From contig JAQVNN010000009.1 of NCBI GenBank assembly GCA_028703105.1, forward strand, positions 1-47,751: 47,751 nt of DNA, given 5' to 3'. Under the pieces are notes generated by a model that saw only the letters and a list, made by a program, of their open reading frames with translations, was not told the DNA's origin and did not search any database. A program made the position numbers and the translations under genes. This DNA comes from Paludibacter sp. (GTDB lineage: Bacteria; Bacteroidota; Bacteroidia; Bacteroidales; Paludibacteraceae). This document shows positions 28,662-38,730 of the stretch, in pieces (position 1 is the stretch's first letter; every line of letters begins with the position of its first letter).

Positions 28662-30632
<1,971 letters not shown>

Positions 30633-30732: not shown

Positions 30733-31674
30733 ATGAATCTGTTCTGGAAAAAGTTTTTTGGCAGACTGATGCCTACGGATAAGTATGAAAAACAAGAGGT
30801 TGATTTTCTGACTATTAGCGAAAAACTTAAATCGTTAAAATATTCGCAGGCTCTTGCTGAATATAAACAACTGTATTTATCCTCTAAATTTGTATCAGTA
30901 GAAACAAGAAAACAACAACAAAACCGGTTAGCAGAACTAAAAAAACATCCTGATGTGGCCTTCTTTCTGAAAAACGGTGCTAAACGAAATACTCCAATCC
31001 GTGATGCCACACTCACTTTCAGTGATGACTTCTACTGGAAAAAACCTGAAGATTCGCGGTGGAACCACGGGTTCTATTTCAGCAATGAAAAACTAATCCG
31101 GAATTATTCTTTCCACAACGAAAAACAAGCCAACAACGCCGGCAACAACACTTTAGTCAATGCAGGTGTTTTGCAAATTCAAACACGCAGAGAAGCGATT
31201 AAATCGCTCGCCTGGCATCCTGTCAGAGGATTCGCCGAAAAACAATTTGCTTATACCTCAGACGTATTGCAATCGGCTAAAAACTTCAGGCAGGAAGGGG
31301 GTATTTTTAAAGCAAAAATCAGGTGTTCGGGAAATATTCACCACGCTTTTTGGCTCGCAACAGAAAAGAAAGAACCTCACATCAACATTTTTCACTATAA
31401 TGGTTCTGAGATTCAAATGGGTTTTATGAACCGACAACAAGGTGATGGCATTATCATCAAGGGCATAAATCCCGCTGCATATTACATTTATTCGATGGAG
31501 TGGACAAAAGATGAACTGACATGGTATATCAATAATCTGGCTGTTTTTCGGACAAAGAACAATATTCCCAAAGAACAAATGTTCCTGGTTTTCAACTCAT
31601 TCATCCCGGAAAAAATGACCGGTGAAGAAGGCTTGCTTGAGGTCGATTGGGTCAGGGTGTATCAATGGTTATAA
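30733..31674 (+). CDS. GH16-fold protein lacking the catalytic acids
   Basis: The 313-residue product has an N-terminal region without family match (1-90, helical and Lys-rich, no signal peptide seen) and then a GH16/laminarinase-like beta-jelly roll. Landmarks are TFSDDF (95-100), GGIFKAKIRCSGNIHHAFWL (189-208), YSMEWTKDELTWYINN (253-268) and the ending EVDWVRVYQ (303-311). The GH16 active-site motif ExDxxE is replaced by HINIFH at 216-221: both glutamates are His and the Asp is Asn. It is therefore unlikely to be a classical glycosidase, and could bind glycan. It opens a polysaccharide gene cluster, 53 bases before a Stealth gene. Confidence 0.8.
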   Translation: MNLFWKKFFGRLMPTDKYEKQEVDFLTISEKLKSLKYSQALAEYKQLYLSSKFVSVETRKQQQNRLAELKKHPDVAFFLKNGAKRNTPIRDATLTFSDDFYWKKPEDSRWNHGFYFSNEKLIRNYSFHNEKQANNAGNNTLVNAGVLQIQTRREAIKSLAWHPVRGFAEKQFAYTSDVLQSAKNFRQEGGIFKAKIRCSGNIHHAFWLATEKKEPHINIFHYNGSEIQMGFMNRQQGDGIIIKGINPAAYYIYSMEWTKDELTWYINNLAVFRTKNNIPKEQMFLVFNSFIPEKMTGEEGLLEVDWVRVYQWL

Positions 31675-31726: not shown

Positions 31727-32719
31727 ATGGAAATTGATTTTGTGATTACCTGGGTGGACATGGATGATCCGGTATGGAAAGAGGAGTTCTACCGTTATTC
31801 AGGTAAAATAGATAACACAAAGAATGAAGTTTCTGAAGCACGTTTCAGAGACTATGGTCTTTTGAAGTATTGGTTCAGGGGAGTCGATAAATTTGCTCCC
31901 TGGGTAAGAAAAATACATTTTGTAACCTGCGGACAAAAACCCGATTGGTTGAACTTGAATCACCCAAAACTCAACCTAGTGAATCATGAAGATTTTATTC
32001 CCAAATCATTTACTCCTGTTTTCAACTCCAACCTGATTGAAATTTACATGCACAAGATTCCCGGATTGGCCGAACATTTCGTGTATTTTAATGATGATGT
32101 CTTTATCATCAATCACATCTCGGAGAATCGTTTTTTTATGGATGGTTTACCCAATGATATAGCCGCATTCAGAACAAACTTCGGTTTATCGCAGTTTGGT
32201 AAAATGCTGAAAAACAACATTAGATTGATAAATAAACACTTCGATAAAAAAAAGGTACTTTCTCGTGATCATGATAAATGGTTTGACAAGTCATACGGAA
32301 AAAGGAGCAGATTAAACTACCTGCTGAGACCTTACAGCAAATTTGTCACGCTGCGAACACCCCACAATGCACAACCTTATCTGAAAAGGACATTTGTTGA
32401 TGTGTGGGAAAAATGTGGTGAGGAGCTGACCGAAATGTCCACTCACAGGTTCAGGAGCGATAAAGATTATACTCCTGAATTGTTCAGAACCTGGCAAATC
32501 TGCAGGTCAAATTTTACTTCTTATAACACTTACCAGGACACTAAGATGTTTCCATTAGTACTTAAGTCAAAAAAAGCCATCGAGGCTGTGCGAGAACAAC
32601 GTTATTTACTTGTTTGTCTAAATGACAATGTACATATTCATGATTACGAAAACGTGCTAAATGAGCTGAAAATCGCTTTTGACAGTATATTACCCCAAAA
32701 ATCAACTTTTGAATTATAA
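31727..32719 (+). CDS. Stealth-family sugar-phosphate transferase, first
   Basis: Stealth proteins transfer hexose-1-phosphate to a growing glycan, producing phosphodiester links in surface polysaccharides. The 330-residue protein shows CR1 IDFVITWVDMDDPVW (3-17). CR2 runs from ARFRDYGLLKYWFRGV (38-53) through APWVRKIHFVT, FNSNLIE and IPGLAEHFVYFNDDVFI, with NDD at 122-124. A CR3-like part follows (TLRTPHNAQPYLKR), then CR4 with VCLNDNVH. CR2 here has RFRDYGLLKYW where most members have a DNDELKYS-type sequence, so the donor or acceptor may differ. No signal peptide: a cytosolic enzyme. Confidence 0.9.
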   Translation: MEIDFVITWVDMDDPVWKEEFYRYSGKIDNTKNEVSEARFRDYGLLKYWFRGVDKFAPWVRKIHFVTCGQKPDWLNLNHPKLNLVNHEDFIPKSFTPVFNSNLIEIYMHKIPGLAEHFVYFNDDVFIINHISENRFFMDGLPNDIAAFRTNFGLSQFGKMLKNNIRLINKHFDKKKVLSRDHDKWFDKSYGKRSRLNYLLRPYSKFVTLRTPHNAQPYLKRTFVDVWEKCGEELTEMSTHRFRSDKDYTPELFRTWQICRSNFTSYNTYQDTKMFPLVLKSKKAIEAVREQRYLLVCLNDNVHIHDYENVLNELKIAFDSILPQKSTFEL

Positions 32720-32736: not shown

Positions 32737-33606
32737 TTGGAAAAAGACAATATCATATCCGTAATTATCCCGGCTTACAATGCATCTGCCTACTTGTCGC
32801 AATGCCTGGAGTGCTTACTTTTTCAAACTTATAAGTCATTGGAAATCATTGTTGTTGATGACGGTTCCTCTGATGACACAGCGAAAATAGCCAAACAATA
32901 TCCGGTAAGGCTTATCGAACAAAAAAATCAAGGAGTTTCAGCCGCCCGAAATGCAGGTATCAATGCTGCAACGGGCCAATATATTCACTTCATGGATGCG
33001 GACGACATTGTCAACCTGGAATTTTATGAAAAAATGCTGTATGCAGCCTTATTGTCTAATGCAGATATTGCTTGTTGTGGTTTGGTGCACGAGCGATTGC
33101 CTGCCGTCAGTTTTTCATATCAGGATAGTATCCTGGTTTCGGCAACAGAGGATAAAATGCGCCTGACCAATGTTGGCAATCAGGGATATTCAGTCAAATA
33201 TCTTTTTAAAAAATCTTTACTGAATCAGCATCAACTTAACTTCGACGAAGACTTGCAGGTTGCCGAAGATATGGTTTTTTCTTTCAAAGCCGTGTATTGG
33301 GCAAACAAAATTGTAACCGTACCCGGTGCTATTTATAACTATAAACACAGGGAAAATTCTGCCATGACTACCAAAGGCGGGTTAAATCGTATAGATAGGC
33401 GACTAAAAATACAAGAAGCCAAAAGACGCAGGGACATCTTTGCACAAGAAAATAACATCTACATAAAAGGCAGACCAACCAAACAGGATCTCGATTATAA
33501 ATTATTCGGTATCATCCCTTTTTTCAAAAAAAGAATTTTTGACACGGGAAGAATTAGGTGGTATTTGTTTGGTATTTGCGTCATGCAACGTAAGGAATCG
33601 GCTTGA
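32737..33606 (+). CDS. Family 2 glycosyltransferase with TTG start
   Basis: A GT-A fold transferase, 289 residues. It contains IISVIIPAYNASAYL (6-20), the nucleotide-binding VVDDGSSDDT (39-48), SAARNAGIN (68-76) and the DxD metal site MDADD (86-90). The only start consistent with this complete N-terminus is TTG at 32737, 17 bases after the Stealth stop; the next in-frame ATG is inside the DxD motif. The C-terminal 80 residues are Lys/Arg-rich (DRRLKIQEAKRRRD), suggesting membrane-surface association. The sugar is unknown. It ends 3 bases from the stop of the oppositely oriented Stealth gene. Confidence 0.88.
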   Translation: MEKDNIISVIIPAYNASAYLSQCLECLLFQTYKSLEIIVVDDGSSDDTAKIAKQYPVRLIEQKNQGVSAARNAGINAATGQYIHFMDADDIVNLEFYEKMLYAALLSNADIACCGLVHERLPAVSFSYQDSILVSATEDKMRLTNVGNQGYSVKYLFKKSLLNQHQLNFDEDLQVAEDMVFSFKAVYWANKIVTVPGAIYNYKHRENSAMTTKGGLNRIDRRLKIQEAKRRRDIFAQENNIYIKGRPTKQDLDYKLFGIIPFFKKRIFDTGRIRWYLFGICVMQRKESA

Positions 33607-33609
33607 CAA

Positions 33610-34557
33610 TTATTTCTCAAAAGATGATTTATCAGGATAGAGTGCATCCAAAAATGGTTTCACTCGGGCACGATCTTCATCGGTTGCCCTTTCCGTATCA
33701 TTCAAACAAAACAAATCAGGATTGAATCGTTTCAAATATCCCATAAAATCGGGATTTTGAACCCTGATGCGACATGATTCCTTTCTGTTTACCAGTTTCA
33801 GGTGTCCTTGGTTTACTGCCAACACATAATACTGAAAAAGAACACGTTGTACATCAGAAGGATCTCTGAACTGATTCTTCAACACCGGCGATAATTCATC
33901 CTTAAAAACATCCTCAACAACTGCCCTGAAATCTTCTTTTCGGCATGCATCGATGTTATGATGAGACACGCCGGGATAATAAACTCCAAATTTACGTTTT
34001 ATTAAATCCAATGCGTTTTCGATACTTTTTCGGTAGTTGTTGATACGAATTCCAAGCAGTTTTTTTAGTTTAATTTCTGTCCGCTGCATAAACTGATATT
34101 GCAGCCTGACAACAGGGAATCCATCTCCGGAAAAAAAATAGGATGGTTGTAAATCGGCATGAATAAACATATCATCGTTTGCATACAGGAAGTAATCTGA
34201 GAGCCCGGGAATACGATAAATATAATACTCAATCACAACTGAATTAAAACATGGATTTGCTTCAGGGGGTAAAACATCCTCCTGATTAACCAACTGTATT
34301 TTAGGGTGATCTACATCCAGCCAGACCGGACGTTGATAATCGGTAACAATAAATATTTTTCTAATCCACGGTAAATGTTTTTCAACAGATCGTAAAGAAT
34401 ATTTCAATTCATCATTATCCACATACCTTCCGTTTAAGTTAATACCAGATGCTGATTTACTTTTACTTAATGCTACCTGTTTTTTGTTTTTCCATACAGG
34501 ATCATTTCCATCAACCCATAGATATACAAGGTCTATTTCTGGGAAACTATTATTCAT
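33610..34557 (-). CDS. Stealth-family sugar-phosphate transferase, second
   Basis: The second Stealth enzyme of the locus, 315 residues, closer to the consensus than the first. CR1 is IDLVYLWVDGNDPVW (8-22). CR2 begins GRYVDNDELKYSLRSVEK (43-60), runs through LPWIRKIFIVTDYQRPVWL, and includes FNSVVIE and IPGLSDYFLYANDDMFI, with NDD at 127-129. CR3 is GVSHHNIDACRKEDF, and CR4 CLNDTERATDEDR is near the end. The two Stealth copies are clearly different in sequence, so they probably act on different sugars or acceptors. The gene overlaps the end of the upstream wzy-like gene by 8 bases, so translation is coupled. Confidence 0.92.
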   Translation of the reverse strand: MNNSFPEIDLVYLWVDGNDPVWKNKKQVALSKSKSASGINLNGRYVDNDELKYSLRSVEKHLPWIRKIFIVTDYQRPVWLDVDHPKIQLVNQEDVLPPEANPCFNSVVIEYYIYRIPGLSDYFLYANDDMFIHADLQPSYFFSGDGFPVVRLQYQFMQRTEIKLKKLLGIRINNYRKSIENALDLIKRKFGVYYPGVSHHNIDACRKEDFRAVVEDVFKDELSPVLKNQFRDPSDVQRVLFQYYVLAVNQGHLKLVNRKESCRIRVQNPDFMGYLKRFNPDLFCLNDTERATDEDRARVKPFLDALYPDKSSFEK

Positions 34558-36046
34558 ACAACTGATTCAATCGATTTTTATTTAACATACGGGACAAATC
34601 AATACAAGTTCTATCCTTTTTACTTTCACTTATTGCTACGAAAAAAACCAGAAATACAGTAAATCTGGTAATCCCCTCCTGGGTATACAAAGGCTCCTCT
34701 ATCATCATAAACAAAATAAAAACAGCCATAAGCATCTGCAACAGATAAGAACGTTCTTTAATGGAATAGAGGATAATGATGTACAACAATAATACAAGAG
34801 CAATAAAACCCCAAATGCCATATTGAACCATATTACCCAAAAACTGGTTGTGTGTATATACTATTTTCCTCTCAACAGGAGGTATAGTATCCTTCATCTT
34901 TTCTTCCTGATATTTAAGAGCAACGTGTTGTTGCTGCGTTCCTGCCCCCCACCAGAAATGATCCTCAATGTAATGAATTGCCAGGGTTGAATATGTACTC
35001 CTGGCTTTATCACCAATGAATCCCTGAACAGTATCCTGCATAAACAGAAGTGCCCCACCACCAACAATTATATATACAATGATGGCAACTTTAAACATTT
35101 TCAGTCTTATTTTTGCATAATACAATCCGGTTGCCGCCAGAATGAAAACACATCCCACAAAACCAATCCGGCTCTCCATCAACGCTTCAACAAAAAGACA
35201 AAGTACAACATATAAAGTTAATTCAAATTTTGAAACAATACCCTGTTTATCTTTTTTATGGTATAAATAAAACCCGGTTATAAGTCCGAAAAACAAAACC
35301 AAAGAGATATAACTCGGGTGAGAATAGTATGCCCAGGAATTAACAAAAAAGTAAACCGGAAAAGTAATCCCGTTTACTAAGCGAATTTGGGGTTCCCAAT
35401 CTGCCATCCAAATAACAATATTCTTTTTTTGGGTAATCCAACACATAAAATCTACATCCAGATGAAGGAAGTTATACCACCAATATAATACGCAAACCAT
35501 TAAATAGATTGTCATTATCCTGAAAAAAACACGTGCAATGCGAATCAGGGTATCATGAGATAAATTGAAAAAACAAAAAGAAATCGGAACAACTAAAAAA
35601 GTATAGGTTAATTCCGGGAAATGAAATCCTTTTGGGGTAGAGATCGTTCCAAAAAATAACAACAAAAAATATCCAAACAAAAAATAATACAACTTATTTA
35701 GTTTATATAACTTTTTATTCAAAACAAGGTGTACTAATGACATAAGGACGAAGAAGCCGGTAGCATAAATACCGACCTTCCTGTGAAATATTGTTGCGAT
35801 CAGAAGAAAAACTAGAGGAATTATAACCAGCGTATTATTCTTGACAATATCCGAAAAAGGTAAATGAAACTTTTTAATTTCTGATGTGAGCAGGAGTAAA
35901 ACTCCCAAAATAAATAATCCCAATGAAAAGAAACGGATATAAATCTCGTTCTCGCTCTTGACAAGGTCAACTAAATGAAACAAGTAAATAACAACAAAAA
36001 ACAATATTCCTCCTAATAAAACAAGGGATGAGAATCGATTTTGCAT
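34550..36046 (-). CDS. O-antigen ligase / Wzy-like polysaccharide polymerase
   Basis: A 498-residue integral membrane protein with about 12 predicted helices. The periplasmic loop near the C-terminus has GAGTQQQHVAL (367-377) and THNQFLGNMVQYGIWGFI (398-415), the HNxFL...GxxG pattern of the O-antigen ligase/Wzy_C family. ESRIG (291-295) is the usual arginine-bearing helix start. The ATG at 36046 is preferred: an upstream TTG at 36067 would lie within the predicted -7 box. Such proteins polymerise repeat units or attach a glycan to lipid A or protein; sequence alone does not decide which. It shares a transcript with the second Stealth gene. Confidence 0.87.
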   Translation of the reverse strand: MQNRFSSLVLLGGILFFVVIYLFHLVDLVKSENEIYIRFFSLGLFILGVLLLLTSEIKKFHLPFSDIVKNNTLVIIPLVFLLIATIFHRKVGIYATGFFVLMSLVHLVLNKKLYKLNKLYYFLFGYFLLLFFGTISTPKGFHFPELTYTFLVVPISFCFFNLSHDTLIRIARVFFRIMTIYLMVCVLYWWYNFLHLDVDFMCWITQKKNIVIWMADWEPQIRLVNGITFPVYFFVNSWAYYSHPSYISLVLFFGLITGFYLYHKKDKQGIVSKFELTLYVVLCLFVEALMESRIGFVGCVFILAATGLYYAKIRLKMFKVAIIVYIIVGGGALLFMQDTVQGFIGDKARSTYSTLAIHYIEDHFWWGAGTQQQHVALKYQEEKMKDTIPPVERKIVYTHNQFLGNMVQYGIWGFIALVLLLYIIILYSIKERSYLLQMLMAVFILFMMIEEPLYTQEGITRFTVFLVFFVAISESKKDRTCIDLSRMLNKNRLNQLYE

Positions 36047-36064
36047 AGAATAATATTTAAGATG

Positions 36065-36072
36065 CAAAGATA
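36065..36072 (-). promoter_or_regulatory. -7 box for the wzy-like / Stealth pair
   Basis: TATCTTTG on the minus strand is an exact TAnnTTTG match, giving a start near 36,058 and a leader of only about 12 bases before the ATG at 36046. No -33 TTTG is visible at the proper distance. It also argues against the TTG start at 36067. Confidence 0.45.
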
Positions 36073-36225: not shown

Positions 36226-37050
36226 ATGGAGTATAAAGCCTCGATTATAATTTCTGTGTATGATAAAACAAAATCACTTAAGGTAGTATTGGATTCATTA
36301 AAACTTCAAACTGAGAAAGATTTTGAAATTATTATATCTGAAGACGGTTGTCATGATCGCATGAAAGAATTCATAAGAAATTATAAATTTGAGCATGATT
36401 ACCTGCATTTAACTCAGGAAGATATCGGGTGGAGAAAAAATAAAGCATTAAATAACGCTATTCGTCATGCCAGATCCAATTGGTTGATTTTTATTGACGG
36501 TGATTGCGTCTTACACCGTCGTTTTGTGGAGATGCACCTGCGATATGCGAGTGATAACACCATTTTGTCAGGAAGAAGGGTGAAATTAGATAAACCAACT
36601 TCAACCTGTTTGAAAAAAAATTCACCCGGATACATTAAAAAACTTCAATGTATTCTTAATAAAAAACTTTTTTGGGGGAAAGGGAAAATAGAATATATTG
36701 AAGAAGGATATTTTATTTCTCCAACCGGAATGCTTGGTTTTATTCCCAAATTAAGAAAGATAAAATATATCATCGGATGTAACATGTCTTTCTCAAAACA
36801 GGCAATTTATGTCATCAATGGTTTTGATGAAAGCTATACTCTTCCGGGTGTTGGGGAAGATATCGACTTGTACTGGAGATTTAAAGCTACCGGGTTTCAG
36901 TTTAAATCTCTTAGAAGTCTTGCCATACAATATCATCTGTGGCACAAAGAAAATTATACCAATGCACATAAGAACAAAGATAAAATGAGATTAAAACAAG
37001 AAGAAAACAAGTACTTTTGTGACAATGGATTAATAAAAACTTCAAGATAA
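36226..37050 (+). CDS. Family 2 glycosyltransferase, galactosyltransferase-C type
   Basis: A GT-A transferase of 274 residues. It has ASIIISVYDKTKSL (5-18), the DxD metal site FIDGDC (89-94), and a C-terminal acceptor part with IGCNMSFSKQAIYVINGFDE, followed by VGEDIDLYWRF. The latter is the GEDxD motif of the glyco_tranf_7C domain, seen in chondroitin-synthase-like and galactosyl transferases. A long insertion at 120-175 is basic and aromatic. It leads a two-gene unit with the Wzi-like gene, 33 bases downstream. The sugar is unknown. Confidence 0.88.
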   Translation: MEYKASIIISVYDKTKSLKVVLDSLKLQTEKDFEIIISEDGCHDRMKEFIRNYKFEHDYLHLTQEDIGWRKNKALNNAIRHARSNWLIFIDGDCVLHRRFVEMHLRYASDNTILSGRRVKLDKPTSTCLKKNSPGYIKKLQCILNKKLFWGKGKIEYIEEGYFISPTGMLGFIPKLRKIKYIIGCNMSFSKQAIYVINGFDESYTLPGVGEDIDLYWRFKATGFQFKSLRSLAIQYHLWHKENYTNAHKNKDKMRLKQEENKYFCDNGLIKTSR

Positions 37051-37083: not shown

Positions 37084-38730
37084 ATGAAATTAAAAAAAAC
37101 TATAACCTTCGTTGTTTCTCTATTACTTGCTTCTTTTCTTTTTTCACAGGAGAAAATATATTCAACAGCTGATTCTTATTTTGATTTTTTAACTTTAGAC
37201 AGCTTAACTGAACGTCCATACTTGAATTTTCGCACTTTATCCGATTCCAAATGGATTATGGATGACAAGACTGAAAATATTTGGAAGCAAAAGGTAAAAA
37301 TCGAAGGTTTTAACAAAAACAAAGCCCTGAAAATATATAATCCGGAGTTTTTTATTTCTTACAATGGAGCATCACCATACGGACAAAATGATGGATTACT
37401 GTGGCAAAGCCGGGGTCTTAATGCTTATTTCTCTGCTGGGGTCAGATTTGAAAAGAAGGGTTTTGAGTTAACTTTCAAGCCTGAGATTGTATTCTCTGAA
37501 AACCGGACATTTTCATTTATGCCGCCTAATCCTGCCTATGCTGGTGACTTATATAAAAACAAAGCTGATGTTTATGGATATTATGGAGTAGCCTCAATCG
37601 ATGCTCCTCAACGATTTGGCAACAACCCTTTCGTAGATTATGGATGGGGTGACTCCGAAATAAGGTATTCGACAAAGACTTTCACAGTTGGCATTGGTTC
37701 TCAATACCTGTGGCTTGGACCGGCTAAACTCAACCCAATCATACATTCTAACAATGCACCATCATACCCAAGATTTGATATTGGTATGCGCCCTACAAAT
37801 ATCCGGATTGGAAACTGGAACGCAGGAAAAGTTGAAGCGCGTCTGTGGTTGGGACAATTGAAAGAATCAGCTTACTTTGATCACAATGCAACAAACAATT
37901 TCAGGTTGATTTCCGGGCTATCTATCGCATATGCTCCTTCCTTTTTTACTGGGCTAACATTGATGGCTAACAGAGTTTTTATGTGTCAATGGGAATACAA
38001 ATCCTTATTATCTGTTCCTGATTTGTTTTTTATCCCCTTGAATATTCATGGAGGACGGGATACCTGGGACCAACGGGCATCTATCGGGTTCAGTTATTTA
38101 TTGCCAGGATCGGGATTTGAAGTTTTCACAGAAATTGGTTTAAATGACTACAGTCCCGGTCTCGACGGGTATATCAGATATCCTTTCCATAGCCTTGTTT
38201 ATACATCCGGCATGCGAAAATCTCTTGATTTGATTCTCTTTAATAAATCTCTGCGTGGAGAATTATTATTGGAAATAACAAATCTGGAGGTTTCACAGGA
38301 TTTTCAGTTAGATGGCACTTCCACTTTCTATGCACATCATCAGATTAGGCAAGGATATACAAACAAGGGGCAATGGCTGGGTGCAGGCAACGGAACCGGA
38401 GGAAACAGTCAGTACCTGGGATTCAAACTATATCATTCAAAAGGGTTGTTTAATATTTTTCTTCACCGGCAAAATCCTGATAATGACTATATATATCAGT
38501 TCTCTGTCGGCACAGAAAACACCGAAAGCGTAAAAGAAAATATTAGAGATTTCAAAGCAGTCATGAGTATCGGCATCGGTGGTGTCTATTTCATTCGTCC
38601 GGGCATTCAGTTTAAAGCGGGAATAAGTTATATTACAGAACATAACCCACTTTATAATGCCATTCACTGGGAAGAAACATCCAAAAGACAATCTCTACAC
38701 CTGGAAACTGGATTGATTTATAATTTATAA
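37084..38730 (+). CDS. Wzi-like capsule assembly outer membrane protein
   Basis: The 548-residue protein begins with a clear signal peptide ending at LFSQEK (about residue 22). The remainder is beta-rich, with alternating strands and turns rich in Gly, Asn and aromatic residues, such as WLGPAKLNPIIHSNNAP and FTGLTLMANRVF. It ends LETGLIYNL, a typical barrel C-terminus. This resembles the capsule-assembly Wzi family, which in E. coli is an outer-membrane lectin that anchors capsule to the cell surface. Its position at the end of a glycan gene cluster supports the assignment. Confidence 0.85.
   Translation: MKLKKTITFVVSLLLASFLFSQEKIYSTADSYFDFLTLDSLTERPYLNFRTLSDSKWIMDDKTENIWKQKVKIEGFNKNKALKIYNPEFFISYNGASPYGQNDGLLWQSRGLNAYFSAGVRFEKKGFELTFKPEIVFSENRTFSFMPPNPAYAGDLYKNKADVYGYYGVASIDAPQRFGNNPFVDYGWGDSEIRYSTKTFTVGIGSQYLWLGPAKLNPIIHSNNAPSYPRFDIGMRPTNIRIGNWNAGKVEARLWLGQLKESAYFDHNATNNFRLISGLSIAYAPSFFTGLTLMANRVFMCQWEYKSLLSVPDLFFIPLNIHGGRDTWDQRASIGFSYLLPGSGFEVFTEIGLNDYSPGLDGYIRYPFHSLVYTSGMRKSLDLILFNKSLRGELLLEITNLEVSQDFQLDGTSTFYAHHQIRQGYTNKGQWLGAGNGTGGNSQYLGFKLYHSKGLFNIFLHRQNPDNDYIYQFSVGTENTESVKENIRDFKAVMSIGIGGVYFIRPGIQFKAGISYITEHNPLYNAIHWEETSKRQSLHLETGLIYNL

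Follow-up and report, generated by a model that had tools for sequence, protein, structure and literature searches.

The closest described relatives of the protein considered here are the GH16 glycoside hydrolases (PF00722), such as laminarinases and carrageenases, with the EglC family (NF052454). These share its jelly-roll fold and framework motifs. The protein and its family lack the catalytic Glu pair of the hydrolases and, in the members aligned with true GH16s, their WPxCG loop and subsite Trp-Pro; they add a hairpin of their own and N-terminal helices, and in a crude scan show no obvious signal peptide, a feature usual in bacterial GH16. Loss of the glutamates has a parallel: passages of PMC6403176 present the β-1,3-glucan recognition proteins (β-GRP/GNBP) of insects as GH16 domains without catalytic glutamates that are thought to bind β-glucan. 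Those proteins serve in insect immunity and carry an extra region, N-terminal or for carbohydrate recognition, whereas the present family is bacterial and its modelled N-terminus helical; Pfam found no such added region in 49 members.

Two other systems bear on the genes nearby. Stealth polymerases are described, in excerpts of PMC5974469, as joining sugars through phosphodiesters; these hexose-1-phosphate transferases are neighbours of the protein and not relatives, and it matches no Stealth model in Pfam. Cyanobacterial LPS is described in parts of PMC3087551 as free of Kdo, with the early lipid A genes present without the Kdo steps; here, by comparison, presence and absence of Kdo genes varies within genus groups of one Bacteroidales family.

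The window, the whole stretch of DNA that was analysed, is 47,751 nt long and comes from Paludibacter sp. (GCA_028703105.1, contig JAQVNN010000009.1). The gene of interest lies at 30733..31674 (+ strand, stop codon included) and encodes 313 aa. On the family to which it belongs, open-access papers yielded nothing to the point, which is weak evidence of novelty.

Fold and former active site

An earlier, sequence-only reading had proposed that this protein keeps the GH16 framework around an active site in which all three catalytic carboxylates are replaced. Both halves of that proposal hold. Pfam Glyco_hydro_16 matches residues 208-307 (E=1.8e-5, exceeding the gathering cut-off); phmmer pairs HINIFH (codons 216-221; 31378..31395, + strand) with EIDILE of the laminarinase ULam111 (5wut); and the flanks of the motif align as well, AFWL...HINIFHYNG in the window protein against ALWM...ELDIMEHVG. 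HINIFH thus stands where ExDxxE is expected. An AlphaFold2 model built on a 49-sequence alignment (mean pLDDT 91, pTM 0.84) places helices at residues 4-8, 15-37, 39-53, 56-70 and 73-82, followed by β strands; the strands form a β-jelly-roll that Foldseek and a profile search of PDB sequences both identify as the GH16 fold. Judged by title, nearly all of the best 50 Foldseek matches in the PDB are glucanases, laminarinases or carrageenases of GH16 type, the strongest at E 4.9e-16. The profile search gave 24 matches at E<=0.001 (best 2.6e-10), 23 named as GH16-type and one just as 'Hydrolase', with no solved structure of a close relative among them. Residues 216-222 form a single strand of the model, and HINIFH lies on the strand that aligns with the catalytic motif.

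Loss of the catalytic pair is general in the family. The motif was read in a census of 152 non-identical proteins: the 144 scoring >150 bits were kept and the 8 with 150 bits or less dropped; L195 lacks letters at the motif, which leaves 143 readable; L039 was left out of A1, and L095, whose match lies outside the aligned part, was excluded from the motif reading. Not one of the 143 keeps both glutamates; because the loss is common to the whole family, HINIFH is not a chance replacement in one gene. Among the 144, position 216 (the nucleophile) is H in 73, Q in 27, E in 18, M in 7 and other residues in the rest; position 218 is D in 66, N in 51, S in 11 and K in 7, with others; position 221 (the acid/base) is K in 56, H in 45, R in 17 and E in 6, with others, and so is basic in 118.

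What took the place of the carboxylates is less uniform. The same earlier reading allowed for a different chemistry at HxNxxH, to be checked for conservation among orthologues; a selected new active site of this kind is not supported. Only 23 of the 48 members from the window's bacterial family (assigned by score and genome) carry the complete HxNxxH, and none of the 96 others does. Within those 48, position 221 is His in 45, and position 216 takes the values H/M/N/Q/L/R/F/Y/V; among the others, 73 of 96 have Lys or Arg at 221. Positions 216, 218 and 221 are moderately conserved (ranks 88, 85 and 104 of 221 columns). A FastTree tree from which the motif columns were left out gives them 39, 26 and 29 changes, against a column median of 39. 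A conserved HxNxxH site was accordingly rejected: the positions drift.

Constraint has instead moved. The former catalytic residues evolve at the median rate or somewhat more slowly, while W161, G166, W110, W264 and N267 show no change on the tree, and F167 only three. The first two and F167 lie in a family-specific β-hairpin tip (residues 157-172; 31201..31248, + strand), the end of a hairpin that is long in the model, with strands 146-162 and 166-176. When eight members were compared with six true GH16s (L042, L048, L091-L094), approximately residues 157-172 proved to be an insertion absent from all six; the eight have also lost the WPxCG loop, which takes a variant form in one of the six, and the subsite Trp-Pro that precedes the motif.

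Distribution, N-terminus and location

The pseudoenzyme is no isolated case, its family being found across Bacteroidales. A set of 60 related genomes includes 36 from the window's genus, and 34 of these carry it (E<=1.3e-74; it was not found in G003 and G021). An order-wide sample of 393 genomes gave 110 matches at E<=1e-12, or about 102 once eight weak ones (E 1e-12 to 2e-20), which may be ordinary GH16s, are set aside. In a phylum-wide sample of 395, six genomes match, the window's among them; the remaining five proteins score about 50 bits and resemble ordinary GH16, and the four of these examined at the motif all have ExDxxE intact. As far as sampled, then, sequence matches mark this as a Bacteroidales family. 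The protein is also encoded, at 84% identity, in three Paludibacter sp. records and, at 86%, in one Bacteroidetes bacterium record. On a FastTree tree a branch with support 100 sets the family apart from the six true GH16s, a separation that carries a long-branch warning. PF00722 is matched by 47 of 49 aligned members at E<=0.01, and EglC by all 49 at E<=0.001; the window protein itself reaches 29 bits against EglC, for which the cut-off is 700. A Pfam carbohydrate-binding domain occurs in none of the 49. A family of this kind, spread over an order, would by default be annotated as glycosidase, and knowing that the GH16 catalytic pair is lost prevents a false assignment of function.

The N-terminal helical part (residues 1-90; 30733..31002, + strand) opens with a conserved start, MNLFWKK..G..PT..E, and varies greatly in length. 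Most relatives in the genus are about 440 aa long, with a longer helical region than the window protein, and across the order the open frames measure about 330 to 907 aa. A structure model of the long form from a single sequence reached a pLDDT of 38. In some Bacteroidales the helical region has grown to give proteins of about 830-905 aa (L110:8639-11353, L140, L162), and Pfam found no repeat family in the members that were scanned. The window's own clade (L001-L006, L050, L051) has a shortened N-terminal region, and this short form occurs in both of the genetic contexts described below.

No visible signal peptide had been noted in the window protein, and none was found: its first 40 residues contain no signal-peptide-like hydrophobic run, by a crude scan that gave low values for four of six true-GH16 controls too, their starts apparently having been set wrongly. 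On the same scale two secreted-looking GH16s measure 2.9 and 3.2, and the more hydrophobic N-termini of distant members reach up to 1.95. The protein is probably cytosolic; because of those N-termini, this location is least sure in some distant members. An N-terminal amphipathic helix, also considered, is unsupported (2587 of 5000 shuffles had a moment at least as large).

Neighbouring genes and possible functions

In the window the pseudoenzyme gene follows gyrB (28674..30632, + strand; named from its sequence) and precedes a run of envelope-glycan genes assigned by Pfam: a Stealth-family transferase (31727..32719, +; regions CR1-CR4, two of the four below the Pfam cut-off), a family 2 glycosyltransferase (32737..33606, +), a second Stealth-family transferase (33610..34557, -; CR1-CR4, CR3 below the cut-off), an O-antigen ligase/polymerase-like membrane protein (Wzy_C; 34550..36067, -), another family 2 glycosyltransferase (36226..37050, +) and a Wzi-like capsule assembly protein (37084..38730, +). 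Across 43 non-redundant loci of the window's bacterial family, 36 have gyrB no more than two genes upstream, and 28 have a SLOG-family gene as the immediate upstream neighbour. Downstream the loci fall into two kinds. Within eight genes, a distance that some short contigs do not reach, kdsA (in many cases fused to kdsC) occurs in 24, Stealth in 14, both in none and neither in 5. Representative neighbours were assigned by Pfam (DAHP-synthase family with HAD hydrolase, SIS with CBS, Stealth, GT2, Wzy_C), and the names kdsA, kdsC and kdsD are our reading of those domains. A large part of the window's genus, and some genera related to it, seem to encode kdsA and kdsC as one protein of about 450-480 aa (L118:7738-9132 and relatives); outside the genera with the fused form the two parts match separately.

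The Stealth cluster that had been described at this locus is real in the window, where two Stealth genes follow; as a property of orthologues or of the whole protein family it does not survive. Stealth is the rarer downstream neighbour, in 14 of 43 same-family loci against 24 for kdsA, and order-wide Stealth_CR2 and the pseudoenzyme occur together in 4 of 393 genomes where about 6 would be expected, so that linkage as a family trait was rejected. Within the window's bacterial family, 19 of 74 pseudoenzyme carriers have Stealth against 1 of 36 non-carriers (p=0.003, uncorrected), and in 10 of the 19 holding both the Stealth match lies within 2.5 kb of the pseudoenzyme. A tie between the residues HNH at the former catalytic positions and Stealth context was also tried (11 of 14 against 8 of 24 loci, p=0.017); it disappears over independent pairs of the gyrB tree. 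One genome (G028) holds two pseudoenzyme copies (L026, L041), one in a Stealth context (L124) and the other elsewhere.

What such a protein might do can be approached by way of what it is unlikely to be. A decaying pseudogene would explain the loss of catalytic residues and is hardly credible on any other ground: the gene is present nearly throughout the genus; matches from related genomes have no internal stops, and only two in the wider family set have any; pairwise dN/dS over the whole gene is 0.024-0.107 in nine pairs, with dS saturated in several, and is also low in the two least saturated (0.107 at dS 0.27; 0.059 at dS 0.57). Codon comparison thus marks the gene as a working one under purifying selection, with decay excluded, as the sequence-only reading had supposed. 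That it might be a working GH16 hydrolase whose active-site stretch has been misaligned is very improbable; the Pfam match would suit this, whereas strand and flanks align clearly and a scan of the whole window protein turned up neither ExDxxE nor [ED]x[ED]xx[ED]. An enzyme with a new chemistry, using His, Lys or Asn in the old cleft, would account for the prevalence of a basic residue at 221, and of His there in the window's bacterial family. It has a small chance at best, given the merely moderate conservation of 216, 218 and 221 and the loss of the subsite Trp and the cleft loops. Probably, then, the protein no longer cuts glycans.

Two explanations of a non-catalytic kind are then to be compared. 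According to one, which we consider possible if somewhat unlikely, the protein is a scaffold, purely structural or between proteins, whose housekeeping role has nothing to do with glycans, and the nearness of kds or Stealth genes is a chance feature of the gyrB locus. The drift of the old catalytic positions and the near-invariance of the W161/G166/F167 hairpin suit such a scaffold, as does the lack of association with KdsA presence (51 of 74 carriers against 27 of 36 non-carriers, p=0.66). So do the neighbours in other Bacteroidales families, which are mixed and, judged by eye from sequence starts, mostly not glycan-like; in a few loci a gene that looks by eye to be of heptosyltransferase type lies some genes away. 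Against accident stand the many short gaps between kdsA and the pseudoenzyme (<600 bp in 27 of the 51 same-family genomes with both, in 11 genus groups) and the presence of another glycan module, Stealth, downstream in 14 of the 19 loci without kdsA. The other explanation, to which we give about an even chance, makes the protein a non-hydrolytic GH16-fold binding or scaffold protein, at the cytosolic or inner membrane face, beside an envelope-glycan module. An envelope-glycan role is plausible because the two alternative downstream modules, kds and Stealth, are both glycan-related; what counts against it is that the coupling may be local, given the neighbours elsewhere in Bacteroidales.

As a mechanism, this envelope-glycan explanation would run as follows. 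The protein would be cytosolic or lie against the inner side of the membrane. Its GH16 sandwich, in which the acid/base Glu has mostly given way to a basic residue, would bind an envelope glycan (perhaps an anionic one) or a lipid-linked precursor; alternatively, the W161/G166/F167 hairpin peculiar to the family would dock a partner. A connecting role would fall to the N-terminal helices, and the whole might work beside the downstream module: Kdo synthesis (kdsA-kdsC, kdsD) in most loci, the Stealth/GT cassette in the window's lineage. The family would then offer a new handle on envelope-glycan assembly.

Kdo genes and Stealth cassettes

The exchange of Kdo genes for Stealth genes is more surprising than the pseudoenzyme itself. 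Kdo links lipid A to the remaining LPS in most Gram-negatives. In the window's genus, 14 of 36 genomes give no match to WaaA or to the synthase part of KdsA, yet LpxC is present in every one of them; four of these are <90% complete. The window's own genome (G000, 92% complete) is one of them: KdsA, KdsB and WaaA were not found in it and LpxC is present, which suggests a lipid A without Kdo. Two others of the genus, G019 and G030 (87% and 82% complete), have KdsA and no WaaA, and one more, G031, has WaaA with just the kdsC part. On Kdo loss in Bacteroidales the open-access literature yielded nothing to the point.

A census of the three Kdo genes covered 110 genomes of the bacterial family, each >=85% complete: 69 have KdsA, KdsB and WaaA together, 27 (one, G832, a single contig) have none of the three, and 14 are mixed. 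Weak, GH16-like matches in G820 and G909 and a Stealth match below cut-off in G892 were not scored as hits in the family-wide counts; the KdsB matches of G829 and G870, which fall short of the family cut-off, were scored. Presence varies inside single genus groups, such as g1, g28, g386 and g396. All three genes are missing from 16 of the 20 Stealth-bearing genomes, the window's included, and from 11 of the 90 without Stealth (Fisher p=5.6e-9, uncorrected for relatedness). Exceptions run both ways: besides those 11 Kdo-less genomes without Stealth, three genomes combine Stealth with all three Kdo genes (G833, G855, G884) and one Stealth genome keeps KdsB (G825).

The gyrB tree covers 38 of the 43 loci, five having no usable gyrB. 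On it the kds or Stealth state changes seven times, and well-supported branches force at least three changes of the Stealth label and at least five of the kds label. In the window's bacterial family, the pseudoenzyme is often found at a site where another glycan cassette has taken the place of the Kdo genes. A bolder version, which we regard as doubtful, would have one Bacteroidales lineage repeatedly dropping Kdo, with a Stealth cassette taking its place at the same site and the pseudoenzyme acting as the site's fixed scaffold or glycan-binding subunit, serving either glycan. Genomes in which the Kdo enzymes are absent, Stealth cassettes present and LpxC kept (its presence was tested in the 60 related genomes) would make it possible to test whether, and by what, Kdo can be replaced in nature. 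In three genomes (G031, G886, G895) the kdsA-kdsC query finds a match for its kdsC-like part alone, which was not scored as a KdsA hit; KdsB is missing from them and WaaA is present.
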